From: Haliotis asinina
Taxonomy: Eukaryota > Mollusca > Gastropoda > Lepetellida > Haliotidae
DNA length: 64,000 nucleotides
Assembly (NCBI RefSeq): GCF_037392515.1
Contig: NC_090291.1
Location: 29,312,001 to 29,376,000 of the forward strand
Reading direction: 5' to 3'
A program made the position numbers and the translations under genes. Shown here in pieces: positions 1 through 55,959 of this stretch. Every line of letters begins with the position of its first letter. Position 1 is the first letter of the stretch. The notes beneath the pieces are model-generated. The model saw only the letters and a list, made by a program, of their open reading frames with translations. It made no database searches and had not been told where the DNA came from.

Positions 1-263
1 CATGTCTCTGCATTGTAACTGTAGATAAACATATGACTCCATACGGGGCACAGATGAAATGTGGCTGCACATGGGGAATGAAATGTATATGACACTTCTG
101 TCCACTGTAATGTTTTCTTGGAGAGGAATGCTTTATCCATATGTGGACACAATCATTACCAAATGAGGGTTTTGTAGTATCATTTGAATTTTTTGAAGAA
201 CCGTCGAGTAATTCTCACTCAGTATGTGGATGTATGTTGCGAAGTGTGCAAGTTTGTCTGTGA

Positions 264-372
264 CTGTCTGTTAATTTGTCAGTGTGTGTATTAGAGAGTA
301 TGTGTGTGAGAGAGAGATCGTGTGTGTGCGTGAGTGCGTGCGTGAGTGCGTGCGTGCGTGTGTCTGTGTCTG
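264..372. repeat. GT-rich simple sequence
   Basis: An imperfect (GT)n/(GTGC)n tract interspersed with GAGA. The short open frames across it are made of C, V and S repeats and are an artefact of the simple sequence. Confidence 0.75.
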
Positions 373-1564
373 TTTATGTGAGAACGTTGCTGGGTGTCTG
401 TTTGTTTGTGGCTCCACTTTACTCATTGTGTTCAGCATTCACCATCCTATCCACAAGCAACACACCTCCTGCCTATTGCCACGTATCTTCTGAACCCGGA
501 TGTTGTATGTCTGGAAGTGAGATTTCGCATGCCAACTCCCGTGTAGCCAAGACGCAAAATGAAACACATTAAGGCGTATATACATCAGCACAGAACCTGT
601 CACTGACGTTGACTTGCGGAAAAACTTTCTTGCATATCAAAAACATATTAGCCATACATACAGCTATGAATTAATCATTGTGAGGCATAAATATTTCACA
701 TATGACAGAAAACATTAAGTAAACTTATATCTACGCACCACTAATTCCAATGTTTGTGCAATACCAATGTAAAAGCAGTGCTTGGTTAGCATTTTAACTT
801 AACAATACAACAATTCATTAGTGGTTGTTTTTATTTATCTAACTATACAATGAACTGCGTTTATATGTATGTATACCCATCAAAAGTTTAGACACACCAG
901 TGTAAATGTACCCACTTATTGTCAACTGTTCTAAACTAGATTTTGCAAAATAGTCATAATCTTTAAACGTACTGTTTACACTTGAACTGATGCATTGTGA
1001 AACAAATTCACAACGCTAAAAAATATTGTCATGCCTTCAATAAAGGATGAAATCGGTGACAAGTGGCGAATTCTTATCAAAACTTTACACCAAAACGCAA
1101 CTGTTCACATGCATGATATCTGCAGATGCTTTTCATCAGTCTGATGCATCATCCTCGTGCGTTGAAGCTGATTAAGGTTTGCAGTTGTTTCTCGTCAAGG
1201 TAGTAGAGAAATTCTTCTTCGTTGTAGCCATATGTACATATACAACATAAAGTGAATGAGTCTAAACGTTTGATGGGTAGAATATATCATTGTCACCACG
1301 GTAAACTGCCTCTGTCTCCTCTGCTGGTAAATATAGCTGTATACATCCTGCCCCAGTCATCCGGGTCACTGACGTCTGCATACTACATGTATATACGACC
1401 TGTCAGTTATGTACGACCGACGTGAGTATACTGCGGAATAAGAAGTTAATATTAATGTTCAGTTTCATGTTAGCGATGTTTACGAAAACAGTTATCTTTC
1501 ATCTGGCGTGTTTCCTACAGGTGCGGGTAATGCACTTACACCGTGTGTGTCACACAATTCATGT

Positions 1565-1705
1565 ACCGGGCTGTGGGGTAGCCAAATGATTAAAGGGTTA
1601 CGTCATCAAGTCCCGGGTTCGATTCCCACATGGTTACAGTGTGTGATTCCCATTTCTGGAATATTGCTAAGAGCGACGTAAACCCACCTCAGTCAGTCAC
1701 GTGGT
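1565..1705 (+). mobile_element. tRNA-derived SINE
   Basis: The head carries tRNA-like promoter boxes: an A-box-like 'GGGGTAGCCAAATG' and a B-box 'GGTTCGATTCC'. It is followed by a body with 'CCCATTTCTGGAATATTGCTAAG' split over the usual tail 'GCGACGTAAACCCA' and a (CAGT)n end. The same head and body recur near 19.5, 24.4, 41.1, 46.7 and 61.1 kb, so this is a dispersed family. Confidence 0.75.
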
Positions 1706-3451
1706 ACGTTCAAGAATTATTATGATTAATATGCAATCATACTCTGTCTCTCGGATAAAACTAGAGCTAGAATATGTCGCTTGTATCCAAATGGTCGTAG
1801 GAGAAGATAACGTTGTTACAAAGAATGGATGAGGTCCGTGACAACATAAACTATTAACAAGCCTTACCCTCTGCTTCAGGTTTGAGTAGCTGCGTGCTGT
1901 GTTGTTAAAGCAACATCTACACATACCAAATCTGCTTCCGTGGCAGCGCTATATCGCTGAGAAAATGGTTCATGTCTCCGGTGGCACAGTCTGCTCCTCA
2001 TGCATCTACATGTAGTATTACTTGAGCTGCAACGATTCACTCGTACATGGATTCGAGTCGAGTTTCGATACTTGACCCTCGATTCCATCATTTTCTATTC
2101 TTCATAAGGTTTCATATAACGGCCAGAGTGGGGTCTTTAAGCGTGAAATCGTGAAGTTGGCGATGTCCTCCAACAACTATTTTCATCGGATAAATAGCCC
2201 GGCGTCAACCAATCATGTTTTGCCTTATTTCAGCTCTAGAAACAGCTCTAGTTGGAGTCAAAAACACGCTTTGGCCGTGTGGAAATGATATAAATAGCCA
2301 GATATTCAAATGTCGAATCGGATTACTGATAATGGATGTCAAAAAACGAAACACAGGTGTCAGATTTGAATTTTGGATGAATCCAACCGAATCGTTGCAG
2401 CCCAAAGCATTAGACCTGCTTTATTGTTGTCATAACATCTATCGGCCTATGTCAAAGTGTAGACTGATGTGTCTTTCTTCGGGTTCTGTGTGTGTCTGAA
2501 CCGGATGTAGTGTCTCGTGTGTCTGTGTGTCTGTTCTTCCACCCTCCACCCTGGCCTGAGGTGAACTATCCATGCTAGTCTGTCAGTAATGAATAGACTA
2601 ATTCAGTTACGACTGGGTTGGTTGAATGAAGACTGGGCTGATAATGAATCGCCTCTAACAAATTTGGCACACATAAGATTTAAGATAACCACCGTCAGTT
2701 GTGTCTTATGTTCTGCAGTTTTAAAGGTTCGAAATTAAATTTAGACTTTAAAACACTTAAACAAACACAAGGAAATGTTGCTCTTACTGGGTGCTAACTA
2801 AGCTATGGTATCACTCATGTTTTAGTACAAACTAACCAACAAAAGGTATTGCCAGCTGGCAATGACGTATTTGATAAAGAGGTATAGTGTATTTAGTTCT
2901 CTAGTTTACACCAGAATTTTGTCGAACGCAGCAATTATCACATAGCTTTTTTTAACTCGAATGCATCGTGACTCGTAAGATGTTCCCGTAAAAAACTAAA
3001 ACAAATACGAATAATGTTTATTTTTACAAACGTATATTAAAGAACACTGGTACATAGGATATACATATTCCAAGGATAGGATGATTTCATAGCGCGGTTT
3101 ATATTCAAGCTCAGCTAAATCCTGTGCATTTCAGCTGTCAAACGTTCAACTTGTCGACTGCTAAGGACAAAGGCGTAATCATGGTTACGTGACCTCTTTG
3201 TGGACTCAAGACAAATATTCCAGTACTTTTTGTTACTGTATTAATACATGCTGCTCATCAAGACATTTATTATCATGACAGACTTGAAAAAGACTTGAAT
3301 TAGTAGTTACGGTGAAGACACGAATGGTCAATGTAATTGTTGTAACAGCGCTCATACACTGTACACATATTTTATACAGGTGCCGATAGTGGTGGGAAAA
3401 CATGCTGTTTCTTCATGCTGACAGAGTCAGTACCCGTTGTTCTTGGAATGA

Positions 3452-3681
3452 GTGAGTGAGTGAGTTTATTTTTACGCCGCACTCAGCAGTATTCCAGCTA
3501 TATGGCGGCGGTCTGTAAATAATCGAGTCTGAACCAGACAATCCAGTGATCAACAACCTGAGCATCGATCTGCGCAATTGGGAACCGATCCTGTTAGACG
3601 CCTCTTACGACAAGCATAGTCGCCTTTTATGGCAAGCATGGATTGCTGAAGGCCTATTCTACCCCGGGACCTTCACGGGTC
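3452..3681 (-). mobile_element. CTCA-tailed SINE, complete with target-site duplication
   Basis: Read on minus, the copy starts GACCCGTGAAGG and ends in the (CTCA)n tail. An 11-bp direct repeat, tcttggaatga, flanks it at 3441-3451 and 3682-3692, as expected for LINE-mediated insertion. About 40 bp in the middle are missing compared with the longest copies (e.g. at 28.3 kb). It lies downstream of the first Toll-like receptor gene. Confidence 0.85.
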
Positions 3682-3899
3682 TCTTGGAATGAAACAAGAT
3701 ATAAAACTTAAACACTAGAGACTGATCTGTCGTGTCTGCTGGAACATGTTGAATATTCAATGCAGAGAAGTCTTAACAACTGAGTCCAGTCATGGCATTG
3801 TATACTTTAGTGCATACAAAGTCTATATATTTGCCTCCAGTTCAATATTACACGTATACATTGGAAAGAAAATTGAATACCTTATCATTTGACTCTATG

Positions 3900-5837
3900 C
3901 TAACAAAGGTCATACTGTTCTGGGAGCCTTTTACCTACACATTTGTCAGTATTTTCATCTTTGTTTCCAGCCAGGAGTTCGTCTTCTGCGATGGGCTGTT
4001 CCTTTTTTGGTTTACTCTTATCCATTAATGAATAAACAATTCTATCCCAAAACAGCTTGTCAGAGATGTGAATGTACGTCCATGTCTGCATGCAACGCCG
4101 GAAGTCCGCGTCCAGCTCATTCACAGGGATGTCCTCGAGAAGCACTAGAATCAGATGTTTCTTCTTCTCTATGAGACTCTGGTGGAAGGCAGTGCGGAAC
4201 TCCATCAAACACCACTCGCTCTCCAGAAACTTCCTGGACAACACCAGGATAGTGTGTCTGCTTGCCTCAACGCTCTGAACAATGTTGTCAGCTATAGCAG
4301 CGCCAACTGCAAAATCTCGCTGGTGGAGACACAACCGGAAGTTATTCCCGTCAGGAGCACCGCTTTCCAGTCGCGGGAGGAGAGTTTTAACGACCCACTC
4401 TGAATCCATATGACTATAGGCGACAAAAGCATCGTACTTCTTATCGCTGGAGTTTTCAAATGACTGACAAGGGAGGAGGATGTTGCAGCGTGTGAAAGTC
4501 AGTATTTGTATTTCCTTTCTATATCGAACACAAACTAACACGAAGATCAAGAACATGATCACAATTACACAAATAGCAGATATCTGAGATATGTAGGCTG
4601 TCATATCACTGGAACATAACATCTTTTGTGTGAACTCTATAATCATTCTCCCTCGAAATCTTTTTGGTGCGTCACATTCTAAGTCCCAGAGATAAGCATA
4701 GTCCTTGTTTAGACCAGCGTCGGCTGGACCACCAAACTTTTGAAGATATGTGCTGAAGTTTCCCATGGCGCAGTCACACCGAAATGGATTGTCTCTCACG
4801 TTAATCACAACTCCGTCAACTTTTGAAAAAGATTCAATTTCATTTTCACCAATTGTATGAATGTCATTGAACCGAAGATCTATCATTCCAACATCTTGAG
4901 AGAGAAGGCTTGCATCTCTTAATTCAAACCGGGATATGTTATTATGAGAAAGGTCCAAAATTTGAAGTTTGTCGAATCGGCGCCTCCAGACTGAGAGAAT
5001 TGGGGGGAATACCTGCAACTCTGTATCTGAGAAGTTTAATACCCGAAGTTCAGGAAATCGTGCGTTGACTACACTTGAATAAATAAGGGTGGACGAGGCT
5101 TGAATCCGTTGACTTTTATCAAATACTCTCATATTTTCATAGTTGCAAATGTAGTCAAGATCGTCCATATCATGTATGTTCTTCGTGATCGTGTCAGTGA
5201 TATTCAGGTCCTCAAGATCTGGGTAATCTTCTCTGTCTTCGTCAAATAGTATTTTAAGCCGCCTGTTTCTATAGATAAAGACGTCCAGGTGCAATGGAAC
5301 ACACACCATTGGAGCCGGTAAACTTTTTATGTCAATAGACAACATATCCAGCAATTTCCTCTCCTCTGTCACGTCATAACCTTCAAATATCCTTAGTGAG
5401 TCTGGGATATCTAACACTTCCGGTCGACTGAAGTCAGAGTAGTAGCATGTATTCGTGCACCTGTTGACCCTCAGTGTGTGCAGGTGTCCAGCTCTGTATG
5501 GCCAGGGTAGACAGATCCGTGCTCCAGCCTCACAGAATATATCAAGAGATACTAGGGTGTCATTATCCAACTTAACTGACCAGTTCCGGAATTGATTCAA
5601 GTCCCATACATCCCTCTCATGTACGTGACAATGCATGGAGATATATGATATGTTGGTCTTGTGGCTTCTGGTCTTACACATAGACTTCCATTCTCCTGGC
5701 ATGTTCGTATTTCCGAACTTAAGAGAGGGGGGAATGTCAAGGGGAAAGAAGTTTGTAACAGCAATAACGTCAATTAATGGCAAAATAGCTGTAACAATCG
5801 TCCAAAATCTGAAATATGATTGTGAGAGCATATTCAT
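3900..5837 (-). CDS. Toll-like receptor, single-exon (copy 1)
   Basis: Membrane innate-immune receptor. The frame is open from 5939 (679 codons), but the Met at codon 35 begins a good signal peptide (MNMLSQSYFRFW...), so I start there. In 679-aa numbering: a cysteine-containing N-terminal region, recognisable leucine-rich repeats only at about 295-385 (LQILDLSHNNISRF), one C-terminal cysteine cap (NPFRCDCAMGNF, about 385-442), a membrane helix at about 448-471, and a TIR domain at about 500-640. TIR boxes: YDAFVAYS, RDFAVG and FWDRI. In box 2 the position usually held by proline (RDxxPG) is valine. The tail ends ...LPEQYDLC. The short ectodomain with one cysteine cap fits the single-cysteine-cluster (vertebrate-type) class. 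A second copy lies 2.7 kb upstream in the same orientation. Ligand and signalling output cannot be read from sequence. Confidence 0.92.
   Translation of the reverse strand: MNMLSQSYFRFWTIVTAILPLIDVIAVTNFFPLDIPPSLKFGNTNMPGEWKSMCKTRSHKTNISYISMHCHVHERDVWDLNQFRNWSVKLDNDTLVSLDIFCEAGARICLPWPYRAGHLHTLRVNRCTNTCYYSDFSRPEVLDIPDSLRIFEGYDVTEERKLLDMLSIDIKSLPAPMVCVPLHLDVFIYRNRRLKILFDEDREDYPDLEDLNITDTITKNIHDMDDLDYICNYENMRVFDKSQRIQASSTLIYSSVVNARFPELRVLNFSDTELQVFPPILSVWRRRFDKLQILDLSHNNISRFELRDASLLSQDVGMIDLRFNDIHTIGENEIESFSKVDGVVINVRDNPFRCDCAMGNFSTYLQKFGGPADAGLNKDYAYLWDLECDAPKRFRGRMIIEFTQKMLCSSDMTAYISQISAICVIVIMFLIFVLVCVRYRKEIQILTFTRCNILLPCQSFENSSDKKYDAFVAYSHMDSEWVVKTLLPRLESGAPDGNNFRLCLHQRDFAVGAAIADNIVQSVEASRHTILVLSRKFLESEWCLMEFRTAFHQSLIEKKKHLILVLLEDIPVNELDADFRRCMQTWTYIHISDKLFWDRIVYSLMDKSKPKKEQPIAEDELLAGNKDENTDKCVGKRLPEQYDLC
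4030..4354 (-). other. TIR-domain tract identical to copy 2
   Basis: These 325 bp match 8766-9090 base for base, covering codons for about residues 530-637 (from DGNNFRL to IVYS). The first mismatches are at 4029/8765 and 4355/9091. Flanking coding sequence is clearly diverged, including at silent positions. Confidence 0.95.
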
Positions 5838-6028
5838 TGTTGGTTTTACTCGTCTTTCGGTGTAACCGCAATCTGTCGTCTTCGGAAACAACCGTAACAG
5901 TGAGCAGAATCTACATTCAGTGTGATGACGAGGGGACATTGATGGAAGAAAACGGCCTCACGAAGACAGCGCTGTCAGGGTGCTACTGAAGGATCCAGAT
6001 AATTCAATGTCTTCTCTGACTCTAAAGA

Positions 6029-6034
6029 TATATA
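6029..6034 (-). promoter_or_regulatory. Possible TATA box of Toll-like receptor copy 1
   Basis: A TATATA motif lies about 190 bp upstream of the chosen ATG (90 bp above the most distal in-frame ATG). It is supported by motif and position only, in AT-rich DNA. Confidence 0.25.
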
Positions 6035-6199
6035 GAAAGGCGCAGCGGTACAAGTAAAGGGTTTTTCAATGAAATCTGAAATCTGTTTTATGCACCTAAA
6101 AAGAGCTGCCAAGGATTTGTAGTTATGTAATAATATTTCATGTTCCAAACCAAAACTAATGTCCTCGGTAGGATGAGCGCATATAAACGTTATAATTAA

Positions 6200-7030
6200 T
6201 GTCATGAATCACGAACCAAGACCTGACGCTATTCTGGGATGACATTGTATTCTTCATGCGTGTTTAGTATCATCGGTATCGATGAGCATCATAATATACG
6301 CTGCATAATTGGACTGGTTATGATCAAACGTGATTGAGCTTCAGATGGATCTGAGTCTTGTCAAAAAATAAAACTCAAATGTTTTTTTTCTTCAGGTAGT
6401 TCTATGGTGGGTAAAGATTTACCAAAATCATAAACATCGACTTTGTGAAATCACAAATGTATACCATCAGAATTCTTACCTGTTTCATTGACTGTTGATG
6501 ATCTAACCTGGTGCAACCAGCAGAGCTGGAGTATACTGAATCTAGGTTTCAGGTTTTGGGGTAAACATTTATACGAGTTGATTTGGTCAGCCTGACATGC
6601 AGAAGCCTGCTAAACAGGATGAACACTCTTGTATATATAACGCAAAGCATACTTCCTCTGTCACAACAGTAAATCATGTAGCTGAAACACTTTGTGATTT
6701 CCGTTGTCGTCCCTTGTCGTCCCATGTCGATCTCGTCCGTCCTTTTTCTTTGTGCACTTCTTATCATGCACCTAGATCATTTGATACTGTGTTAACTACA
6801 ATGTGATAAAGACACCAGGTGTTGGCGGTATTTATGACTTGTTGAATCTTATAAGTTTCAAGGTCATTATAAGATTTTAATGTGTAGCATTTACATAAAA
6901 TCTTCATAGATTGTTTTGTGGTATTTAGAAGAATTATAATGATAACAACTTCTTGTGTTTAGTAAGGGAGATTTTCAGATACCACCATGTGTCAGTATGG
7001 GCACAATTAAAACTGCGTGAATGCAGCGGT
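6200..7030. other. Intergenic between the two receptors
   Basis: AT-rich sequence with no supported gene. It lies upstream of receptor copy 1 and presumably holds its promoter and 5' UTR. Confidence 0.45.
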
Positions 7031-7039
7031 TTGGGGGCT

Positions 7040-7480
7040 TTCGTCAATAAGACACATTCAAAACTGCTTCAATGAACGGGATTCTTGGCGTCAGTAAGGA
7101 TACATTCAGGACTACGTCAGTGAAGGGGCTTCTTGACGTGCATCAGTAAGGACACATTCAGAACTTCGCCAATGATGGGGCTTGGTAGCTTGCGTCAATA
7201 AGGAGCCGTTCAGACATTCAGAACTACCTCAGTGAAGGGACTTCTTGGCGTGCGTGAGTAACGACACATTCAGAACTGCGTTAGCGGCGTCCGTCAGTAA
7301 GGTGACATTCAGAACAACATCAATGAAGGGGATTCGTGACGTGCGTCAGTAAGGACTAATTCAGAACTGCGTCAATGAAGGGGATTCGTGGCGCGCGTCA
7401 GTAAGGACTAATTCAGAACTGCGTCAATGAAGGGGATTCGTGGCGTGCTTCAGTAAGGGAACATGGTGCATGTCAGTAGT
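7040..7480. repeat. Tandem repeat, about 52-bp unit
   Basis: Degenerate copies of a unit containing 'GTCAGTAAGGAC', 'ATTCAGAACTGCGTC' and 'AATGAAGGGGATTCGTGGCG'. The last copies are most alike (period 52 bp, from 7351 to 7403), while those at the left are strongly diverged. Confidence 0.85.
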
Positions 7481-7744
7481 AGGAAGTGACGACATGCTCA
7501 GCTATTTATGAACTGTGACATGTCTCATGGCATAATAACCGGAGTAACATAACCATTTGGTGTGGAGAGATATCATATTTCATATTTCATTGTCGTGATG
7601 GCAATGGCAGTAAGTAAATAAAGCCCAGGTAAAATCCTGAATTCTGTTGTAGCATTATATCAAAGGTTCATATCATATTCATTTCGTTTTTCATTACCAC
7701 ACAGAACTATTATGACTATCAGCACTATCATACTACTACAGTGT

Positions 7745-8340
7745 ATAATAACCTTTCAGTGAATCAAAACTTTAAATTGTATTATAACCTTGAAGAGTGT
7801 TTTAAACTTGAAGTTTAGCATAACCTAGATGTGTATTTATAACCAGAAAGTGTATTTATAAGTTTGAATTGTATTTATAAACTTGAAGTGTATTTATCAC
7901 CTTGAAGTGTTTTTATCATCATGAAGCATATTTATCACCACCTTGAAGAGTATTTATAAATTTGAAGAGCACATTAACCATTAACCTTGAAGAGTATTAT
8001 AAACTTGAATGTAATTATGATCTAGAGGTGCATTTATAACATTGACGTGTATTTGTAAGCTGGAAGTGTTTTTATAACCTTGAAAAGTATAATAACCTTG
8101 AAATGCACAATAACTTTGAAGAGCATCATAACGTAGAAGTATATTTGTTTTCTAACCTTTAAGTACATTTATAACCATCAAGTCTCTAACAACCCGAAAG
8201 TGTATCACACCTTCAAGTCTATTATTAGCCGGAGGTGTATCATGTCTTCAACTCTCGTATAATCCTGATGTATGTGTATGTCATGCCTTCAAATGTACTA
8301 TAACCCAGACCTGTATCATAACCACGAGTTTCAGTTATAG
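7745..8340. repeat. Degenerate short-period repeat, about 20 bp
   Basis: A long run of imperfect units around 'ACCTTGAAGTGTATTTATA', with many substitutions and length changes. It fills most of the remaining spacer between the two receptor genes. Confidence 0.75.
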
Positions 8341-8470
8341 CTGCTTTGACTAATCCACGAAGCGTCTGTAACTGTATCCATACAGAACCTGTACAGCGGC
8401 CCAGCGCCTGTACTAATCATATAAAAACAATGCCATGAATAAAATGTTTGTTTAATGAACACATTGACAA

Positions 8471-8476
8471 TTTATT
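8471..8476 (-). terminator. Poly(A) signal AATAAA, receptor copy 2
   Basis: AATAAA on minus, about 97 nt beyond the stop of receptor copy 2; a plausible cleavage signal for a short 3' UTR. Confidence 0.55.
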
Positions 8477-8572
8477 TTCAGTTCAAACTGATAATTCTTT
8501 CTTCGTTGATAACAACAAACAAAGGCAGTTCCTCAGTATGCATTTATCCCTGAATTAGCCTGGCACTTGCAG

Positions 8573-10549
8573 TCAAAAATCAGTGATTTGGTCAACTGTC
8601 TTCGATTCCTTTTCAATATACAGACAGAGATCATATTGTTCTGGTAGCTTTATGCTGACATTATCACAAGAGTCACTTGTCGGAGCTGTCAAACGATTGT
8701 TTGTGTCAGCGCATTCTGTTTTTGCATTGGATGATTTCCTTTTTGATCTACTTTTATCTGTCAAGGAATAAACAATTCTATCCCAAAACAGCTTGTCAGA
8801 GATGTGAATGTACGTCCATGTCTGCATGCAACGCCGGAAGTCCGCGTCCAGCTCATTCACAGGGATGTCCTCGAGAAGCACTAGAATCAGATGTTTCTTC
8901 TTCTCTATGAGACTCTGGTGGAAGGCAGTGCGGAACTCCATCAAACACCACTCGCTCTCCAGAAACTTCCTGGACAACACCAGGATAGTGTGTCTGCTTG
9001 CCTCAACGCTCTGAACAATGTTGTCAGCTATAGCAGCGCCAACTGCAAAATCTCGCTGGTGGAGACACAACCGGAAGTTATTCCCGTCAGAGGAACCACT
9101 CTCCAGTCGTGGGAGGAGAGTTTTCACAACCCACGTTGTGTCATGGTGACTATAGGCGACAAAAGCATCGTATGTCTTATTGCTTGAGTCCTCAGTCGGT
9201 TGACATGGAAGAATAATATTGAAACGAGTGAAAGCAAGAATGGTTATCTCCTTCCTGTATCTTGTCATGACAATGATAGTGACCAACAGAATGATTACGA
9301 CAACACTAAGGACTGATATCTGAGCGATATAGGCTCTTGTATCCGTTGAACACAACATTTCTTTTGAAAGGTCTCTGATCGTTCTTCCTTGAAACCTCTC
9401 TGGGGTAACACATTTTAGGTCCCAAAGGTAGGTGTAATTCATATCCATATCTACACCTAGCATTTTTTTCATGTCCTTCTGGAGGTAGTCACTAAAGTTC
9501 GCCATCGCGCAGTCACATCTAAAAGGATTGTTTCTTATGTCAATTACAGCGCCTTTCGTTCTTGAAAAAGAATGCATTTCTTGGATTCCTATCGTGCGAA
9601 TGTTATTGTACCTTAGATTAATGAGACCAATATCTTGAGAAAGGAGGCTCATATCTCTTAAATCAAAACGAGAGATGTTGTTATGAGAGAGATCCAAATA
9701 TTGCAGCTTATCAAAACGGAGTCTCCATGTTTCCAAAATTGAAGGATAAACTTGTAACTCTGTGTTTGAGAAGTTTAGTGTTTTCAACTCAGGAAATAGA
9801 GAGTTGATGATAGTAGAATATATTATGGTTGAGGTGGCATCTGTCCTTTGACTCAAATCATAAACCTTCATATTTCTGTAGTTGCATATGTGTTTTAAAC
9901 TGTTGATGTCCCGCGTCGTTTGTACGAAGGCGTCAGTTATGTTGTCATCTTCCATGGGAACAAATCCACCAGGATAGATATAGTCTGTTGAGGTGTTCCT
10001 GTAGATGAACACCTCCAAAAACACCGGTCCACACTCCAAATCAGGGGGGAGGCTATTCAGGTCAACAGATAACATATCCATTATGTTAACCTGTTCAGTA
10101 ACACCATATCCTTCAAACACCCTCAGGGAGTCAGGAATTTCCAGGACTTCCGGTCTGTTGAAGTCCGCGAAGTAGCATCTGTTTATGCAATCCTTGACCG
10201 TCAGTGAGTCCAAGTGTCTGGCTCGGTACGGCCAGGGGAGACAGACACTGGCTCCAGGTTCACAAATAATGTCTACAGACACACGAGTGCCATTATCCAA
10301 TATGGCGGACCAGTTCCGGAAGTGAATGAAATCCCATACGTCACCTTCTGTCACGGTGCAAGAAATGGATACCAAAGAAAGGTTTAGATGGGTGTCCGAC
10401 CTACACATGGTCTCCCACTCAGTCGGCAGGTTCTGCTTTGTTCCCAGTGAAGATACACTGGTCTGCACATCAGATGACATGAAACATGGAAGCCAGGAGA
10501 CATTTAGAAATGCCACATTGAATAATATGAAGATTAAACGGGACGGCAT
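8573..10549 (-). CDS. Toll-like receptor, single-exon (copy 2)
   Basis: Tandem paralogue of the receptor at 3.9 kb. The frame is open from 10591 (672 codons). I choose the Met at codon 15 (MPSRLIFILFNVAFLNVSW), which starts directly on a signal peptide; the first Met remains possible. Same architecture: sparse leucine-rich repeats (about 275-360), one cysteine cap (NPFRCDCAMANF), membrane helix at about 420-441, TIR at about 473-612 with YDAFVAYS, RDFAVG and FWDRI. The cytoplasmic tail carries the same LPEQYDLC as copy 1 but continues 16 residues (LYIEKESKTVDQITDF), where copy 1 stops. Ectodomains of the two copies are clearly diverged while most of the TIR is identical in DNA. Both genes being intact suggests both are functional. 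Confidence 0.92.
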   Translation of the reverse strand: MPSRLIFILFNVAFLNVSWLPCFMSSDVQTSVSSLGTKQNLPTEWETMCRSDTHLNLSLVSISCTVTEGDVWDFIHFRNWSAILDNGTRVSVDIICEPGASVCLPWPYRARHLDSLTVKDCINRCYFADFNRPEVLEIPDSLRVFEGYGVTEQVNIMDMLSVDLNSLPPDLECGPVFLEVFIYRNTSTDYIYPGGFVPMEDDNITDAFVQTTRDINSLKHICNYRNMKVYDLSQRTDATSTIIYSTIINSLFPELKTLNFSNTELQVYPSILETWRLRFDKLQYLDLSHNNISRFDLRDMSLLSQDIGLINLRYNNIRTIGIQEMHSFSRTKGAVIDIRNNPFRCDCAMANFSDYLQKDMKKMLGVDMDMNYTYLWDLKCVTPERFQGRTIRDLSKEMLCSTDTRAYIAQISVLSVVVIILLVTIIVMTRYRKEITILAFTRFNIILPCQPTEDSSNKTYDAFVAYSHHDTTWVVKTLLPRLESGSSDGNNFRLCLHQRDFAVGAAIADNIVQSVEASRHTILVLSRKFLESEWCLMEFRTAFHQSLIEKKKHLILVLLEDIPVNELDADFRRCMQTWTYIHISDKLFWDRIVYSLTDKSRSKRKSSNAKTECADTNNRLTAPTSDSCDNVSIKLPEQYDLCLYIEKESKTVDQITDF

Positions 10550-11572
10550 TCTAGTGAGATCCCGATGATGAAACACTGTCACCATGGTCAATCCTGCTTC
10601 ATCATTTGGTCATTCGATCGTTGACACAACATCTGCTTCTTGGCATTTGGGAGGTTCATATCATTGTCTGTCCTTGGTGTCGTTGACGCTCATCGGTGAA
10701 ACATTTGTTTTTAAAGACGACACCTGAAAGTATACAAAGACTGTTAATATAGGTAGGGTGTCGAAAAGACGGCGTTTGGTGGTGCTCATAACGGCAATCA
10801 TCAATCATTAGACTTGATTTTTTAAAGGGTGTCGTTAAACAGCTTAAATAGTACTTAAATAAGCAACATGCACACATCTAAACACGCGAGCTGTAAATTA
10901 AACCCATTCAGAATAAGCACCATAGCAACAAACACACAAAAAATCCTTTTCCATTAGACGAAATGTTTACGAAAGGTGTATTGGAGATGATAAACGAGAG
11001 TTCAAAGAAAGCAATACATGGAATCAAGCGTCATTGTTTGAAACCGCAAGAGTGGGGGAAAGATGGCTGACAGATTGTCTGTGGCAATGGGCCCATAAGG
11101 AGAACCAGTAAGGGAAAATACACCCACTAAAAGCTTCGGGTTCGTTTACAACATCCACTCGGCGTACAGCCGTGATAGATGTGCTCTATACATGTATATA
11201 TTGCGCAATGTTGTGTTCAGTTATGTTTGGATATAAAGAAAAATACTTTGTTAAATCATGAAATGTAAAAATTACCGCAATTCATGTTTACTTTCTCGCA
11301 TATTACTTATCCTCTGTCATGTGCGTGACGACTAGAAAAGTGACATCTGTACAATAGACGATGGCATTCAGTATCTACACAGGATGTGTAAAGAGCACAA
11401 TATCTGACCAAACAGGATACGTTGGGGGATGACGAGACAGTTCTTGTTATCAATGATGTGACAAGTGCGTCCTTGTAAGATTAAGGAAGATTTCATTGCA
11501 ACACATGTTTTCTTTGAAACCTCCCAAAATGTATATACTTACATACATGCACGTTGTAGTAAATCTAAAGAC

Positions 11573-11644
11573 AAGCTCTCTTGACGCTAAGATAGTGTCA
11601 TACATTAACATTAAGTTACTACTATCTTAGCGATAAGAGAGCTT
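11573..11644. repeat. Fold-back (inverted repeat) element
   Basis: Two arms of about 27 bp, 'AAGCTCTCTTGACGCTAAGA' at the left and its near-perfect inverse at the right (the inverse reads AAGCTCTCTTATCGCTAAGA), enclose a loop of about 17-20 bp. The structure resembles a miniature inverted-repeat transposon; no target duplication was established. Confidence 0.7.
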
Positions 11645-11779
11645 CGAAAATCTAGTATCAGACATCCGTGTTAGAATTTTTCTTCAGGAACCCAGGCTTG
11701 GCGGAATGTCAGACACGTTGACGTGGCTGACACATACCATATTTCTCTGGTTATGTAGATCCACGCTTATGATGTTGTA

Positions 11780-11850
11780 CAGTGGATTGTCTTGTTCAAA
11801 CTCGATCATTTACAAACCGCTAGAAGCTGGAATATTGCTGGGTGCAGTCG
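11780..11850 (+). mobile_element. CTCA-tailed SINE, 3' fragment
   Basis: A decayed piece matching 'GTGGATTGTCTTGTTC', 'CTCGATCATTTACAAACCGC' and 'TGGAATATTGCTGGGTGC' of the family. Head and tail are absent. Confidence 0.6.
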
Positions 11851-12099
11851 GAAATCAAAACATGTTATGATAAAGAAATACCTGGAATAAAAATACTCCG
11901 TTTATGCGTTGTAGGTAGGCTCATATGATACACCACTAACATCATAATCTAGACCGCGCACGAGCTGCTGTAAGGAGCGTTATGTTCACGAGCAAGTCGC
12001 CTAATGAGTAGATGAGCTTGAATCAAGAACACGCCTTGGGGCCCAGATATAACGCGTGCATGGTCCCACTTGATACGGAGTTTTTGTTACCACTATTTC

Positions 12100-13335
12100 A
12101 CTCCGAGTACAACATCGTGGACACCTAAACCCCAGTACAACATTGTAGACACCTGACCCCAGTACAACGCTGTATACAACTGGCCCCCATTACAACATTC
12201 TGAACACCTAACTCCCAGGACACCATTGTAGACACGTAACCGCTGTACAACACTGTAGACAACTGACTCCCATTACAACATTGTGGACACCTGACTCGCA
12301 GTACATCACTGTAGACACCTGACTCCAAGTACATCAGTACAACACTGTAGACACCTGCCCCCCCCCCCCCTTACAACATTGTGGACACCTGACTCGCAGT
12401 ACATCATAGTAGAAACCTGACTCAAAGTACATCAGTGTAGACACCTAACCGCAGTACAACACTGTAGACAACTGACCCCCCATTTCAACATTATGAACAC
12501 CTAACTCCCAGGACATCATTGTAGACACCTGTCTCCGAGTACATCATTGTAGAAACCTGACCCCAGTACAACACTGTAGACACCTGACCCCCATTACAGC
12601 ATTCTGGACACCTGTCTCCCAACATAACATTGCAGACACCCGACCCTGAGTAAAACACTGAAGATACCTGATTCCTAGTACAATAATGTTGCCACGCGAC
12701 CCCCAGTACAACATTGTGGCCACCAGGCCCCAGTATAACATTGTATACACCTGGCCCGAGTACAACATAGTGGACACCTGACCCCAGTATACCATTGTGG
12801 ACACGTGACTCCCAGTACATCTATGTAGACACCTGACCCCAGTACAACACAGTAGACAACTGACCCCCAGTACATCATTGTGGACACCTGACTCCCAGTA
12901 CATCATTGTGGACACATAACTCCCAGTACATCATTGTATACACCTGACTCCCAGTACATCATTGTAGACACCTTTCTCCCAGTACATCATTGTGGACACC
13001 TGTCTCCCAGTACATCATTGTGGACACATAACTCCCAGTACATCATTGTATACACCTGACTCCCAGTACATCACTGTGGACACCTGTCTCCCAGTACATC
13101 ATTGTGGACACCTGTCTCCCAGTACATCATTGTAGACACCTGTCTCCCAGTACATCATTGTAGACACCTGTCTCCCAGTACATCATTGTAGACACCTGTC
13201 TCCAAGTGCAACATTGTATACACCTGACTCCCAGTACATCATTGTAGACACCTGCCTCCCGGTGCAACATTGTATACACCTGCTTCCCATTCCAACATTG
13301 TGGACACCTGATTCCCAGTACAACGCTGTAGAAGA
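12100..13335. repeat. Minisatellite, 28-bp unit
   Basis: About 40 tandem copies of a 28-bp unit around 'TCTCCCAGTACATCATTGTA' followed by GACACCTG. Copies from about 12.86 to 13.26 kb are nearly uniform; those to the left are more diverged and often read 'CCCCAGTACAACA'. The minus-strand open frames rich in VSTMMYWE across it are products of the repeat, not genes. Confidence 0.95.
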
Positions 13336-15760
13336 ATTTGCTGAAAAGCATTTGTGTCCAATGCTGTCTCTACTGCGTAATACCAACAACATGTTCACTG
13401 CTACACAGGAAGTCAATAGCGGAAGTCAACTCTTGTTAGAATCCTGGTTAAACCAAACATGGTAAATTTTTGTTCATATATTTTCAAACAAGGCAATTAT
13501 AAAACCACAAATTTGATAGTATAAGATGATTCGGCATACATTGCCCACAGCAAAGGTTAACGGCGTCGATGTAAAGAGGTGCCTAACATCACTTCATGAT
13601 CCGCATACTTCAATACTTCAAAGCAATACTTCAATGCAATACTTCAAGGCCACATCAACACCATTACCAACTGACTGTAACTTCTCCGGCGTTTAATTTA
13701 TGTTGTACATAAACTCCACATTTGAAACAAATGGCAGGTTCAAGCCTAAACTTAAAGGCCAGTAGGGTGTCGATTACATTGGTACACAAACTACACTACA
13801 ACACACCAGAGGGCCCCAAGGTCCGACATTCGAGTTGCAGCAAGACTATGACGTTTATCAAGCACTATGTTTATATAGCGTTAACACACAAACAATTGTT
13901 TAAAGTTAAATATGAGACATACTTAACGCGAGAAAAATATCTCGGTATTAAAAACTCACTTGGTCGTGACCGGCGGGCAAACACTGGCCTCGCAGAACAT
14001 CTCTTGCCTGTTGCCTCTCCTTGTGTACCCAGTCTCCTCGGAAGAGGCTGTTGACGATGTGAAATATAGGTCACATCTACGTGTGTTGACTCAAAGGGAG
14101 ACGTTTACTGGCCGCTCCCTACTGAACAATGGGGAAGGCTGGTGTTACTTGCACTGGTGTTTATAGTCACTCACACCAGAGTTTTGCTCACAGTGCATTG
14201 TTGATACTACTGTAATCCTGTAATTGTTAGCTTTTATGTACTTGTGGCACAACATACTTCCACAATACTGGGGTGAAGTGGACCATTAATATACACATCT
14301 ATATCATTATTATAAATATATCTGTATGTGTGTCTGTGTGTGTCTCTCTCTCTTTCTTTGGTAATTTCATCGGACATCGTTTTTGTCACTGATGGTTCAA
14401 ATTTGGAAGTGCTCTTCACTTGTCTTCAATAAAACCCTTTAAACACTTTAGAGTATGCTAACGCTTATTATCTAAACATACATAATTTTCATAGTAATAT
14501 AACAGTGTCAGAACTGCTCAGTTGTTCTTCTAGTTTTTACTAAAACTCGAAAATACTCTATAATGTATATAAGACTGTATTTTCACTCGGACTAACTCTA
14601 TATGCGTGCTGGCAAATAGTGCTTATGGCCTCAGGGTGGAAGCAGCCACAACTGGTCAAGCGACGCTAAATGCAATCACAACAGGTCAAGAGACACTACA
14701 TGCAATTAAATGTTAGGTCATTTTCCTAAACGAGCGTTTGTCGGATCCACTCCCAAAAGACAGACCTCCCATAAGACAGACTCAACACACTAATTAGTTG
14801 CTCCATGCTGTCCACCATTATTCAATTAATGAGCTCACCCAGAGTTACTACTGAGTATAGTAACAACAGGAATGTTGTAGGTAAGAATTTAGTACCAGTG
14901 TAAAGTTTAATAGATTTACAGATTTATAAACAAATCACTGCGACTATTCTACACCTTATTCTACAATAATATTATCACAAGACAGTTGAATCAGCATGTC
15001 ATTATTTCCAGTTGGAACTAAAATAACATGCATTCATGACTTATTATTATCTGGCGATCAAGAAGAGGCGATATAATACTATATATTAGACAACTCTGAA
15101 GATATGCCCGACGTCAATTTGGTACATAAGCATACCATTTTTTCTATGAATTTCACTACAAATTGGTTTCCTTCCCTCCTCTGCATACAATCTATAATGA
15201 AGAGTACATTTCTTTTCACGAAGCAGTTTTCTTTAAAAGATTAAATGAATGTTTTCTATTTTCACGTTTTAAAAGACGAATAATGCTAAAAGAGTCAAAG
15301 TATGGTCAGTGGTCGTATAACACTTTCTAAATATAAACCTTATGTTGTCTTTTTGATCTGGACATATACCATTACTGTCAATAGTATACCTTAATTAAGC
15401 CTTGTGCAACCTACCATAAAATGTGTTGTTTTAAGCGGTCTGTCGTTTCGGGGACCTGCCTTGTGGGAAGATACCCTTTGTCGGTGTAGGGTGGATGATA
15501 GGGTACATACAGCTGACAAAGTGAAGTATATTCTATCAAAGATATCAGCAGAATCTCAGATATTCTGACGGCATTCATAATCCTTGATCATCTAACTTTC
15601 ATAAGTTGGCCAGTCAGCGTTAGCATCTGACATCCAAAGCTTTAGTAACGTAACCAGCATGTGGTCTATTCTGATATCGAAAGTGCTAATTATACTTGCG
15701 CTTTCAAATTCCAACAGGAGGTCTCGGGTATATACGGGATGTTTGCACACTAGACTAATT
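13336..15760. other. Intergenic, one weak exon-like patch
   Basis: AT-rich sequence with no supported gene apart from a candidate exon at 13960-14047. Several short frames exist but none has recognisable content. Confidence 0.4.
13960..14047 (-). CDS. Candidate exon, function unknown
   Basis: On minus, an acceptor-like 'TCGTCAACAG' precedes 88 nt that are open as SSEETGYTRRGNRQEMF... with two cysteines, ended by a good donor (CCAA|GTGAGT). GC content is higher than in the flanks. No partner exon was found and no family was recognised, so this may be chance. Confidence 0.2.
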
Positions 15761-16146: not shown

Positions 16147-16665
16147 ATTATAGTAAATCATTCATTGATTTTGCTTAGTAAGACCTATGTTATTACTAAA
16201 TCATTTATAGATATTGTATAATAAGACCTGTGATGTTACTAAATCATTTATAGGTATTGTATAATAAGACCTGTGATGTTACTAAATCATTTATAGATAT
16301 TGTATAATAAGACCTATGTTATTACTAAATCATTTATAGATATTGTATAATAAGACCTGTGATGTTACTAAATCATTTATAGATATTGTATAATAAGACC
16401 TGTGATGTTACTAAATCATTTATAGATATTGTATAATAAGACCTAAGATGTTACTAAATCATTTATAGATATTGTATAATAAGACCTGTGATGTTACTAA
16501 ATCATTTATAGATATTGTTTCGTAAGACCTATGGTGTTACTAAATCATTTATAGATATTGTTTCGTAAGACCTATGGTGTTACTAAATCATGTATAGATA
16601 TTGTTTCGTAAGACCTATGGTGTTACTAAATCATGTATAGATATTGTACAATAAGACTTATGGTG
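16147..16665. repeat. Tandem repeat, 43-bp unit
   Basis: About 12 copies of a unit containing 'ACTAAATCATTTATAGATAT', 'TGTATAATAAGACC' and 'TGTGATGTT'. Inner copies are almost identical; the right-hand copies share the variants TTTCGTAAG and ATGGTGTT. Confidence 0.93.
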
Positions 16666-16788
16666 TTACGTCATCAGTTATCATGTCGTACTGATCAATT
16701 GTCCTACTAAATACATTACTTGAATGTTCCGTGTCTGCAACTGAGTGACTTCATTTATTGATTGATCGCCTAAAGAATGAAGGATTCA

Positions 16789-20047: not shown

Positions 20048-20507
20048 TATGATATAGGATAATTATATAGCGATATAGGATATTTATGTAGCGATATAGG
20101 ATATTTATGTAGCGATATAGGATGTTTATGTAGCGATATAGGATATTTATGTAGCGATATAGGATATTTATGTAGCGATATAGTATATTTATGTAGCGAT
20201 ATAGGATGTTTATGTAGCGATATAGGATGTTTATGTAGCGATATAGGATATTTATGTAGCGATATAGTATATTTATGTAGCGATATAGTATATTTATGTA
20301 GCGATATAGGATATTTATGTAGCGATATAGGATATTTATGTAGCGATATTGTAGCGATATAGTATATTTATGTAGCGATATAGGATATTTATGTAGCGAT
20401 ATAGTATATTTATGTAGCGATATAGGATATTTATGTAGCGATATAGGATATTTATATAGCGATATAGGATATTTATATAGCGATATAGGATATTTATGTA
20501 GCGCACA
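20048..20507. repeat. Tandem repeat, 21-bp unit
   Basis: About 21 copies of 'GATATAGGATATTTATGTAG' plus C, with GATATAGTA and GGATGTT variants and one shortened unit near 20347. Confidence 0.95.
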
Positions 20508-21076: not shown

Positions 21077-21106
<30 letters not shown>

Positions 21107-21269
21107 TGTATGTATGTATGTATGTATGTATGTATGTATGTATGTATGTATGTATGTATGTATGTATGTATGTATGTATGTATGTATGTATGTATGTATG
21201 TATGTATGTATGTATGTATGTATGTATGTATGTATGTATGTATGTATGTATGTATGTATGTATGTATGT
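21077..21269. repeat. (ATGT)n microsatellite
   Basis: An uninterrupted tetranucleotide run of about 190 bp (roughly 48 units). The CMYV and IHTY open frames through it are artefacts. Such length suggests high polymorphism. Confidence 0.98.
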
Positions 21270-23039: not shown

Positions 23040-23284
23040 GAGTGAGTCAGCAATATTCCAGCTATATGGCGCGGTCATTAAAAATCGAGTCTTGACCAGA
23101 CAGTCCAGTGATCAACAACATGAGCATCGATCTGCGCAATTGGGAACCGATAACATGTGTCAACCAAGTCAGCGAGCCTGACCACCCGATCCCATTAGTC
23201 GCCTCTTACGACAAGCGTAATCGCCTTTTACGGCAAGCATGGAGGCAAGCTGAAGGCCTATTCTGCCCTGTGATCTTCACGGGT
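23040..23284 (-). mobile_element. CTCA-tailed SINE, near full length
   Basis: Reverse-complement copy running from GAGTGAGTCAGCAATATTCC to CTTCACGGGTCAC. It includes the middle segment 'CAACCAAGTCAGCGAGCCTG' that the 3.5-kb copy lacks. Confidence 0.88.
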
Positions 23285-23665
23285 CACATTGGCTAGTAAA
23301 GACATCGTTGTAAAATTCTAAAATGTCTGTAGGGTCACTCGAAATGACATTTCAAAGTGCTTGAATACAGAACAGAGAGTCTATTAAAAATTAAGTGTTT
23401 GGAATGGTTTCGCTGTTTCACATATCCCAAAGCAGTGTTGACGAGAACGGGCTGTATATTTTAAGTATTCCTGGATCTTGCATTCGGAAGTTGTGATATG
23501 TGATATCAAAGGTTGGAACTGCTAGAACATTGCTCAACAACAAACAAAACATGACTGTTGAAAATGTAAATCCCCTCTTGTCATGTAGTCTAGTTTTTAA
23601 GATGTCGCTTATCACGTTATTCCTTTTCTAAATTTAACTAAACAGGAACACACTAGGTAACTGAG

Positions 23666-23837: not shown

Positions 23838-26800
23838 CTAGTTGAACGCCTGTGAAGGGGTGGGAGAGGGTACATACTCTACTGGTGAACATCGTTCAGT
23901 CACGTTGTTCATTTCAAACACAGAGTAATTAAGATCAAAGTAACCCGGGCACCATCTGGTTGTGAAGCATTGATCATACTGGTTCAGGGCAAATGTCGAA
24001 CATCCTGGCACTGAGGTACATAAGCTTGCACAGTCGCCAGTAGGGTTGCTACTGATTCGTTTGATTGCTCTGATCCCTCTGGAACTGCTTTCTGTATAAC
24101 CAGTTCCAACTTGGGTCTTCAGGCAGAACTTCCAAGACCCTGTCTCTGGCAGGGTTCTGTAGTTGAGGGATGAAGACGTTTCCGGGTAGCACAGTGCTGA
24201 AAAAAAAAGATTTTCAGCGTTGTTTGGCAGACCCACAACAACACAAGTACGGTTATTCAAGGAAAGCTCAGTCAAAAAAGCCTTGACAGATAGAGATGGT
24301 TACATGAGAGTGTATGGGAAACCATTTATGTTAGAGAAGTAAGCGAGTTATATATGTGTGGGAACAGACCTAGGACAGGGAAGTAAACCTTTTCTCTTAC
24401 GCTGGTGAGATGGCACAGTGGTTAATGCGTTCGCTGGTCACGCCGAGAGACTCGGTTCGATTTCCCACATATGTACAATGCGTTACTCCCTGCCGTGATA
24501 TTGCTGAATAAGATGCATGAAACCAAACTCACTCACTCATACAACCTACTAGCATCACCGTTTCAGCATCGAATCGACACATATAATCTCTCACAGTGGC
24601 GCGTTAATGCATAAAGCAATGGTCATTTTTGACGTTGTCTACTGTTTCCGTCATACCTGTGAATTATCGAAATGATAATGAAAACCAAATAATACAGATA
24701 TTACCGTGTTCGGCAATAGTACGATTAACTCATTGTAGACCGTCATTTTCATCCGTCATAGCCAATCACAACCGTGGAATTCGATCTCGCATGTAAAATA
24801 CAAAGCCTATTTGTGCCGCTGGTCATAATCAAAGATAAAAATTTTCCAAGAGTATTAAATAGTACATATGATTTATCGGTCCATTTGTTTATTTTATTTT
24901 TTTAAAATACACATAGTATGAGCAGAACGTCACCGCAAGACAGATTAAAATGTGTTAAAGTAGCAGTCATTTTTATGTCCGCAAGTACAAATTATCGGTT
25001 TAGACAGTCGGTTCCTGAAGCTTGGAATGATCGCTCACATATGCTACTGATATTTGGATGAGTGAATTTAGTTTTACGCAACATTCAACAGTATTCCAGC
25101 CATATGGTAGTTGTCTGTAAATAATCGAGTGTGGGCAGTCCTTTGATCAACAGCATGAACATCGATCTGCGCAGTTGAGAACCGGTGACATGTGTCTTTT
25201 ACGACAAGGTTCCTGAAGAACAATATTTCTAACCCGGATCTTCACGGGTGGTATTTAGATGGGGATGGAAACTTCCATAAGAAGGAGTGAGGAGACTGAT
25301 TGTAACAGCTCTCTGAACACAATTGGAGAAACATGAAAGTAAGATGCATAGTCTTAATTTTGGAACAAAGAGGTAAAAATTGGAGGTCACGTAGAGCATG
25401 CGCTACAGAGTGCAGTTTGGACCATGACGATGTGTCTTCCTTGATTTTTCCACATGTTACAATCTTACAAACTGGCTGATGCACACATAAGGTATACCTT
25501 CTTCCATCGGCTCTATGCTTACTCAGTAAATTGTGGATTTCCGGAAATGATATAGATTGCTCTGAATGGTGACTGAATTATGACATACTAATCATTGAGA
25601 TGGAACGGAACATTAGCAGTTGCAATGTTAGGATGGGCATGAGAGGAAACTTGATGTTAGCACTTGCCATGGTGATATGAGTAGGAGAGGGGACGTAACA
25701 TTAGCACTTGGTATGTTAGGATGGGCATGAGAGGAAACTTGATGTTAGCACTTGCCATGGTGATATGAACAGGAGAGGGGACGTAACATTAGCACTTGGT
25801 ATGTTAGGATGGGCATGAGAGGAAACTTGATGTTAGCACTTGCCATGGTGATATGAACAGGAGAGGGGACGTAACATTAGCACTTGGTATGTTAGGATGG
25901 GCATGAGAGGAAACTTGATGTTAGCACTTGCCATGGTGATATGAGTAGGAGAGGGGACGTAACATTAGCACTTGGTATGTTAGGATGGGCATGAGAGGAA
26001 ACTTGATGTTAGCACTTGCCATGGTGATATGAACAGGAGAGGGGACGTAACATTAGCACTTGGTATGTTAGGATGGGCATGAGAGGAAACTTGATGTTAG
26101 CACTTGCCATGGTGATATGAACAGGAGAGGGGACGTAACATTAGCACTTGGTATGTTAGGATGGGCATGAGAGGAAACTTGATGTTAGCACTTGCCATGG
26201 TGATATGAGTAGGAGAGGGGACGTAACATTAACACTTAGTGTGTTAGGATGGGCATGAGAGGAAACTTGATGTTAGCACTTGCCATTGTGATATGAGTAG
26301 GAGAGGGGACATAACATTAGCACTTGGTATGTTAGGATGGGCATGAGAGGAAACTTGATGTTAACGCTTGCAATGTTGGAATGGACAGGAGAGGGAGTGT
26401 AAGAGTAGTACTTGGTATGGACAGGAGAGGTCGGAAACATGATATTTACACTTGCCATGTCGGTACGAAAAGACATATTGGTACTGGCTTCGTCTACCAC
26501 TGGACCACATGTTATCCTCCAACAAACTGACAGATATGCAAATATATAGTATACCTTCATCCACAAGGGCTATTAGACCTCCTCTTCCGTGCTCTGTAAA
26601 TTGAGAATTGTTAGCACATTAGTTTGTGTTGGTACAGACCAAAGAAGAGACTTAACCATCAGCACATGCCATATTAGTTCTGGCGAGGCATGTTAATACA
26701 GGCTTAATGTGTAATACAGGGACCGAAAATATATATATCCAACATATTCCATACACGTCTATAATAGCTGGCAATAGAATATCCTCCTTAGGGAAGAAAT

Positions 26801-28046: not shown

Positions 28047-29167
28047 TCAGAACAGACTCGATACGTTGATGAAGTCTGTCTTGCAGAATTTTTCCCAACT
28101 CTTCCTGCAGCTCAATGACCAGTCGTGGAAATGCCGGTGGAATATTTTGGAGTTCATCCCATGGGTGTTTAGATCAGGTGACCTGGAAGGCCATGGCAGG
28201 ACACTGACGTTAGAATTAGCAGAGCGGCGGACCGTGACGAGTGCTGCAGCGTTGTCATGCTGAAACAACTCTCTGTCGGTCAGACCCGTGAAGGTCCCGG
28301 GGTAGAATAGGCCTTCAGCAACCCATGCTTGCCATAAAAGGTGACTATGCTTGTCGTAAGAGGCGACTAACGGGATCGGGTGGTCAGACTAGCTGACTTG
28401 GTTGACACATGTCATCGGTTCCCCATTGCGCAGATCGATGCTAATCTTGTTGATCACTGGATTGTCTGGTCCAGACTCGATTATTTACAGACCGTCGCCA
28501 TATAGCTGGAATATTGCTAAGTGCGACGTAAAACTAAACTCACTCACTCACTCACTCTGTCGGTCAGTAGTCGGTAGCATGTGACGTGACGACTTCGCCG
28601 ATTTGCTGTCAAATTTCCCTGAACCACAACTTAATCAGATCCGTGTGTACTGGATATCCCACTCTGCACCACGAGTCGACCTGTCGAACGCAATCAGGGT
28701 CGAAACCTTCATTTCTCCGACAGTAAACTGGCCGGTAAAGAAGAAACCGTGATTCATCACTGAACCAGACTCGCCTCCAGTTTTTAAGGTTGATTCCAGA
28801 TTCTGCCAAGACACCGCCGCAGGCGACAGCGTCAGTGGAAGTCTCTGAAAAAAGGGCGACAACTGGTTTAACCCTCACTTTGCGCACCTGGTTCCTAACG
28901 GAAATTCTTCTCAATCCAGGGATGCGTCTCCATGGTAGTGCCAAGACGATGAGCAAGTGTCATCATCTGGGTGTAGCGGTCCTGGGCTTGTGTGATAACT
29001 CTTGGACGGCTGCTGTTTTGGGCGGAACTGGTCTACAGGAAACGATCCCATACGCAAGGTATGGTGCTCTGGTGAACGTTGAAATGTCGGGCAGCTGCAC
29101 TTCTACAATTCCCAAGCTTGAAGGCGGCCTATGGTTATGTTTCGACTGTTGGCACTCAGTCGTGGCA
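28047..29167 (-). pseudogene. Decayed Tc1-type transposase split by a SINE
   Basis: Minus-strand remnants read as a Tc1-type DDE transposase. The N-terminal helix-turn-helix region begins at an ATG at 29167 (MPRLSANSRNITIGRLQAW). A middle part has WRRVWFSDESRFLLYR (second-aspartate region context) and a C-terminal part has FQHDNAAALV and LPWPSRSPDLN. Frames are broken in several places and a 271-bp SINE sits between the middle and C-terminal parts. Terminal inverted repeats were not found, so the true ends are uncertain. It is an immobile old copy. Confidence 0.85.
28284..28554 (+). mobile_element. CTCA-tailed SINE, full length, inside Tc1 remnant
   Basis: Most complete copy in the window: head 'ACCCGTGAAGGTCCCGGGGT', full body, and (CTCA)n tail. 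The 13-bp direct repeat ctctgtcggtcag at 28271-28283 and 28555-28567 is the target-site duplication. It inserted after the transposon. Confidence 0.92.
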
Positions 29168-30245: not shown

Positions 30246-30765
30246 GATTGGTCAGTACCTGCCATACCTGAACAGCCACGAGACGCATCTAATACCAATA
30301 CGTGCCTTATCTGAACGGCAATGAGACTTATCTAACTCCAGTACCTGCCATACCTGAACAGCCATAAGACGGATCTAACTACAGTACCTGCCATACCTGA
30401 ACAGCCACGAGACGCATCTAATACCAATACGTGCCTTATCTGAACGGCAATGAGACTTATCTACCTCCAGTACCTGCCATACCTGAACGGCCATAAGACG
30501 GATCTAACTCCAGTACCTGCCATACCTGAACGGCCATAAGACGGATCTAACTCCAGTACCTGCCATACCTGAACGGCCATAAGACGGATCTAACTCCAGT
30601 ACCTGCCATACCTGAACGGCCATAAGACGGATCTAACTCCAGTACCTGCCATACCTGAACGGCCATAAGACGGATCTAACTCCAGTACCTGCCATACCTG
30701 AACGGCCATAAGACGGATCTAACTCCAGTACCTGCCATACCTGAAAGGCCATAAGACGGATCTAA
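30246..30765. repeat. Tandem repeat, 43-bp unit, interrupted
   Basis: About 11 units of 'ACCTGCCATACCTGAACGGC' then 'CATAAGACGGATCTAACTCC' then AGT. The right half is almost uniform. The array is cut at 30765 by the inverted-repeat element, and the next partial unit resumes at 33036. The core AGTACCTGCCAT resembles the AGCACTTGCCAT of the 88-bp array at 25.6 kb. Confidence 0.93.
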
Positions 30766-33465: not shown

Positions 33466-33689
33466 CATAAAAGGCGACTCAGCTTGTCGTAAGAGGCGAC
33501 TTACGGGATCGGGTGGTCAGGCTCGCTGACTTGGTTGACACATGTCATCGGTTCCCAATTGCGCAGATCGATGCTCATGTTGTTGATCACTGGATAGTCT
33601 GGTCCAGACTCGATTATTTACAGACCGCCGCCATATAGCTGGAATATTGCTGAGTGCGGCGTAAAACTAAACTCACTCACTCACTCACT
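33466..33689 (+). mobile_element. CTCA-tailed SINE, 5' truncated, with target duplication
   Basis: Starts inside the family body (CATAAAAGGCGACTCAGC) and ends in the (CTCA)n tail. The 13-bp repeat cactgacgttaca flanks it at 33453-33465 and 33690-33702. Truncation at the 5' end with an intact duplication fits target-primed reverse transcription. Confidence 0.9.

Positions 33690-37994: not shown

Positions 37995-55959
<17,965 letters not shown>

Follow-up and report, generated by a model that had tools for sequence, protein, structure and literature searches.

Two tandem Toll-like receptor (TLR) genes of the abalone Haliotis asinina, here called gene A and gene B, share a tract of 325 bp within the part encoding their TIR domains that lacks a single difference, silent positions included. 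Recent ectopic (interlocus) gene conversion, whatever its donor, is very likely the best explanation for this tract. The genes lie near one end of a 64,000-nucleotide stretch, hereafter the window (assembly GCF_037392515.1, contig NC_090291.1, positions 29,312,001 to 29,376,000 of the forward strand), and all coordinates below count from its first letter. The features on which the argument turns are the following.

3900..5837, minus strand: TLR gene A, a single open frame of 645 amino acids (aa) if translation begins at codon 35, an ATG, of the open reading frame (ORF) 3900-5939
8573..10591, minus strand: TLR gene B, a single open frame of 672 aa, with the same strand and layout as gene A
4030..4354, minus strand: identical tract in gene A, ORF codons 530-636 plus two bases on each side, covering box 2 and the BB loop as far as box 3
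8766..9090, minus strand: identical tract in gene B, ORF codons 502-608 plus two bases on each side

A sequence-only reading of this DNA had claimed identity over 325 bp, silent sites included, with the first mismatches at 4029/8765 and 4355/9091. A recount found this exact, with 325 of 325 bases alike between 4030-4354 and 8766-9090. In the coding direction the tract starts four residues before FRLCLHQRD (box 2), passes through the BB loop, and runs as far as box 3 (FWDRIVYS), whose final codon it covers in part. We take these box names to apply on the basis of an alignment with TLR2, which itself stops before box 3. The tract is by far the longest exact repeat in the window, the runner-up being a 48-bp match between copies of an interspersed repeat; the list covers exact repeats of at least 25 bp and leaves out direct copies spaced by under 1,500 bp, which drops tandem arrays.

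The strongest evidence for conversion comes from silent sites, which were counted by the Nei-Gojobori method on a codon alignment beginning at codon 35 of gene A (490 codons upstream of the tract, 107 within it, and 42 downstream). Synonymous divergence is not equal inside and outside the tract. The proportion of synonymous sites that differ (pS) is 0.75 upstream (236.3/316.3) and 0.60 downstream (15/25), whereas no difference is found in the 67.3 synonymous sites of the tract; the upstream figures are somewhat inflated because the first ~60 residues of both proteins align poorly yet count as upstream. In 30-codon windows over the better-aligned ectodomain, pS ranges from 0.43 to above 1. Nonsynonymous differences follow the same course (310.7/1153.7 upstream, 0/253.7 in the tract, and 33/101 downstream), as do fourfold degenerate sites, which differ at 60 of 91, 0 of 38, and 3 of 5 positions, respectively. 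Where both genes have the same amino acid at a degenerate codon, the codon itself is identical in 102 of 102 cases within the tract and in 132 of 280 outside it. The longest run of such identical codons is 103, made up of the 102 in the tract and one adjoining, while the longest run reached in 20,000 permutations was 27. The absence of change in 67.3 silent sites places a 95% upper bound of 0.044 on silent difference in the tract, and therefore the last homogenization was recent relative to the duplication that gave rise to the genes. The proposal that a recent conversion was confined to the stretch of the TIR domain from box 2 to box 3 is well supported by this step in silent divergence, by the permutation test, and by the divergence of the sequence around it; the ectodomains remain different, as was also claimed.

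Clear divergence on both sides of the tract had also been proposed, and to this there is one refinement. At the 3' (C-terminal) end identity falls off abruptly. The 5' end is softer, with 82 of 106 bases still identical at 4355-4460, the region of box 1. Within this region lies a further exact match of 26 bp, in register between the two genes.

4411..4436, minus strand: box 1 segment YDAFVAYS in gene A, matching 9147-9172 exactly
9147..9172, minus strand: box 1 segment in gene B, the counterpart of 4411-4436

Silent identity across codons 497-529 is 17/25, compared with 115/255 for the other codons outside the tract (Fisher P 0.035, uncorrected for the choice of region), and the longest upstream run of identical degenerate codons is 10 (permutation P 0.049, uncorrected). 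This marginal excess of silent identity in box 1 could be the remnant of an older, wider conversion.

The assignment of both genes to the TLR family draws on their TIR domains. Pfam TIR (PF01582) is found above its cut-off in both proteins, with E values of 1.6e-19 in A and 7.4e-20 in B, while the LRR_4 matches are weak (E 5.4e-5 and 6.4e-4; 23.8 and 20.3 bits versus a curated cut-off of 27). Compared with solved structures, the TIR domain of gene A matches that of TLR2 (1fyw) at E 1.2e-22, and its best solved relatives are chains named TLR2, TLR15/TLR2, TLR6, TLR1, and TLR10 (31 sequences, E up to 0.001). A scan of the same domain against viral contigs gave 4 pattern matches and 0 confirmed relatives. 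Read by eye, both proteins have a signal-peptide-like start, leucine-rich stretches, one LRRCT-like cysteine cluster, a hydrophobic helix, and a C-terminal TIR domain, a layout that appears to be of the single-cysteine-cluster TLR type. The ORF of gene A encodes 679 aa when counted from its first ATG. The start codon of gene B is uncertain, since the listed start is a TTG and ATGs occur at codons 3 and 15. Over 624 aligned positions the two proteins share 63% of their amino acids, and by their coordinates the genes lie 4,736 bp apart on the same strand.

Strong purifying selection on the TIR protein might seem a simpler reason for the identity, as the TIR core is conserved as far as the TIR of TLR2. 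Such selection leaves silent sites free, yet none of the 38 fourfold sites in the tract differ while upstream most do, and we reject this explanation, giving it practically no chance of being correct. Pieces of the two proteins that are conserved outside the tract offer a direct comparison. In a conserved ectodomain piece, codons 324-353, the proportion of nonsynonymous sites that differ (pN) is 0.11 against a pS of 0.69. At the C-terminus, where the tails were compared by eye, both genes encode the same eight residues.

3903..3926, minus strand: C-terminal LPEQYDLC of gene A, with the same residues in gene B at 8624-8647

Four of the eight codons of this segment differ silently between A and B. 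Since protein-conserved pieces outside the tract keep their silent differences, protein constraint fails to explain the tract. LPEQYDLC is itself a possible short linear motif maintained by selection, and gene B extends 16 residues past it. Constraint at the level of the nucleotides, imposed by an overlapping gene or by a regulatory or RNA element, would also reach silent sites and keep the copies identical without any conversion. Nothing speaks for it besides the identity itself, no RNA-family search having been made, and it would require nearly every base to be constrained across 67.3 unchanged synonymous sites that stand beside heavily diverged flanks. A full-length antisense gene over the tract is rejected, as every antisense frame contains at least one stop (3, 3, and 1 in the three frames). 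We regard nucleotide-level constraint as highly improbable.

An assembly or polishing artefact that placed the same TIR sequence at both loci deserves more weight, since a mis-join or over-polishing could also yield exact identity with abrupt ends. The tracts, however, lie in open and distinct frames, and at each edge the coding sequence runs on without interruption or loss of frame. A collapse would delete a copy rather than leave two diverged genes sharing a stretch of identity, and the coding sequence outside the tract, ~63% identical (1005/1602 aligned bases), is probably too dissimilar for reads of one gene to have polished the other. The small size of the identical island, its preserved frame, and the strong divergence of the sequence around it make an assembly fault unlikely, and we rate it somewhat below the chance that A and B were both converted from a third TLR gene beyond the window. 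This last possibility is a sub-case of recent conversion in which the identity of A and B to each other is indirect. It gains from the silent-site composition of the tract, which is unlike the mean of gene A and unlike that of gene B, from the closeness of gene A to the window end (3.9 kb), and from the number of TLR genes in molluscs, 16 to 83 per species according to a review (PMC12521104). It would nevertheless take two recent conversions whose ends coincide or nest, and a third TIR copy inside the window is rejected: apart from A and B, matches in the window span 16-51 aa with E 0.093 or worse, and none is credible. An outside donor to both genes is an unlikely source of the tract. A wider recent segmental duplication is rejected as well, as same-strand blastn (word size 7, E up to 1e-3) found no similarity among the non-coding surroundings of the genes, taken as 1-3899 (3' of A), 5940-8572 (the spacer), and 10592-14500 (5' of B). 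The notion that this DNA commonly carries long exact dispersed repeats is rejected on account of the runner-up, the 48-bp match given above.

Under recent interlocus gene conversion, the history of the pair would begin with an old tandem duplication that produced the two TLR genes. The near saturation of silent sites and the lack of flank similarity indicate that this duplication is indeed old. Later, a break in the TIR-coding stretch of one gene would have been repaired with its same-strand neighbor, 4.7 kb away, as template. Conversion is common between close neighbors on the same strand. The last copied tract would have been up to 325 bp long, and its true ends may sit further inward, where the genes already matched, while the ectodomains, transmembrane segments, and tails would have escaped homogenization. 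We infer both the repair mechanism and a direct exchange between A and B rather than the use of a third donor. Within the two genes alone, no feature decides the direction of conversion. With less confidence, the observed exchange may be the latest of several events, each of which would have been confined to the TIR core because only the core was similar enough to pair.

The composition of the tract at silent positions bears on this last suggestion. Of its 102 degenerate codons, 63 end in G or C (third-position GC, GC3), where the codon usage of the two genes for the same amino acids predicts 43.1 (P 3.7e-5). The excess appears against gene A alone (P 5.4e-6) as well as gene B alone (P 1.7e-4) and is present in both halves of the tract, while GC3 in the adjoining box 1 region stays close to background. 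Repeated conversions with GC-biased repair would be expected to produce such an excess, as would a donor of another composition; the pattern is suggestive only. It is likewise an ambiguous pointer toward the earlier idea that conversion keeps one signaling module common to both receptors, which would imply an ongoing process favored by selection. A broader proposal is that the TIR core is a self-sustaining conversion island, in which recurrent GC-biased conversion limited to the signaling core has held that core in common between the receptors for far longer than the flanks took to saturate, independently of vertebrate TLR1/TLR6, and has retained an unusual valine BB loop in both receptors. 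We put this forward as a tentative idea that is somewhat more likely to be wrong than right.

Several points weigh against these interpretations. The comparison rests on two paralogues in one assembled haplotype, and no finding contradicts conversion directly. The box 1 statistics, with P values of 0.035 and 0.049 before any correction, are borderline. A segment of gene B outside the tract, codons 52-158, has a GC3 residual of 18.8 codons, close to the 19.9 of the tract itself, with the best residuals, 22-23, found in windows overlapping the tract. The codon bias of conserved segments could thus be the cause of the GC3 excess. In addition, the segment that best captures the high GC3 (codons 564-629 of A and 536-601 of B) falls short of the full tract.

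The BB loop of the tract is unusual. In both genes it reads RDFAVG (4302-4319 and 9038-9055), with valine at the position where the TLR2 chain 1fyw has proline (RDFIPG) and chain 1fyx has histidine. The valine is found in both receptors because the position lies in the shared tract. The BB-loop proline matters for signaling in TLR2 and TLR4, and TLR3 is without it. Judging from this residue, the adaptor used by the A and B receptors may be other than the usual one.

Conversion of TLR signaling modules is already known from mammals and birds, and the A/B pair appears to be a narrower, sharply bounded case of it. In mammals, gene conversion between TLR1 and TLR6 has recurred independently in several lineages (Kruithof et al. 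2007, PMC2077338). As in the abalone genes, these are tandem paralogues in which the C-terminal signaling part is homogenized, the N-terminal part differs, and the 3' boundary falls inside the TIR domain. The A/B tract differs in being restricted to 325 bp of the TIR domain without box 1, and recurrence across lineages is a feature seen for TLR1/TLR6. Among birds, conversion has been described for TLR1A/TLR1B and TLR2A/TLR2B (PMC3125219, 2011), where again the TLRs are duplicated, the conversion takes in the TIR domain, and other parts of the ectodomain diverge. The avian regions are longer than the one short tract in A/B, that of chicken TLR1A/B being given as 1178-2374 in table 1 of that paper and reaching from LRR14 to the TIR domain, and TLR2A/B has a second, N-terminal converted region, unlike the single tract in A/B. 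For molluscs, the review cited above describes TLR expansion through tandem duplication, and A and B resemble this pattern as tandem copies with diversifying ectodomains; its main text nowhere uses the word "conversion". No report of TLR or TIR gene conversion in a mollusc appeared among the titles and abstract starts of the matches listed, a scope outside which most papers in subscription journals fall and which does not imply absence from print. In two Biomphalaria papers, one of them PMC10903818, the sole mention of gene conversion in the available text concerns FREPs.

The remainder of the window is rich in repeats of other kinds. Tandem arrays occupy 12100-13332, 16154-16669, 20051-20503, 25597-26419, 30253-30765, and 21077-21269, with units of 28, 43, 21, 88, and 43 bp plus a perfect TATG run of 48.2 copies. 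What appears to be a single interspersed repeat of up to ~270 bp occurs in both orientations at ~3490-3690, 23047-23285, 28282-28557, 33466-33690, and 54376-54648, its copies being 87-94% alike among the blastn matches listed. The copy at ~3490-3690, seen through exact matches of 25-42 bp alone, lies 0.2 kb past the 3' end of gene A. A 48-bp repeat at 38066-38268 (4.2 copies, 96% matches) falls within the minus-strand ORF 37995-38453 and encodes an acidic, lysine-rich protein repeat of 16 residues.

If recent conversion is the correct explanation, it has a practical consequence for TLR trees. A phylogeny of the TIR domain alone would place A and B as very recent duplicates though the genes are old, and trees of TLRs built on the TIR domain are in use, for example, for Biomphalaria (PMC10903818). 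A narrow tract with such heavily diverged flanks would also be a clean place to test the minimal homology needed for conversion. More broadly, an invertebrate case would join the vertebrate TLR1/TLR6 pattern, which would suggest that tandem TLRs repeatedly split into a sensing part that evolves freely and a signaling part held in common.

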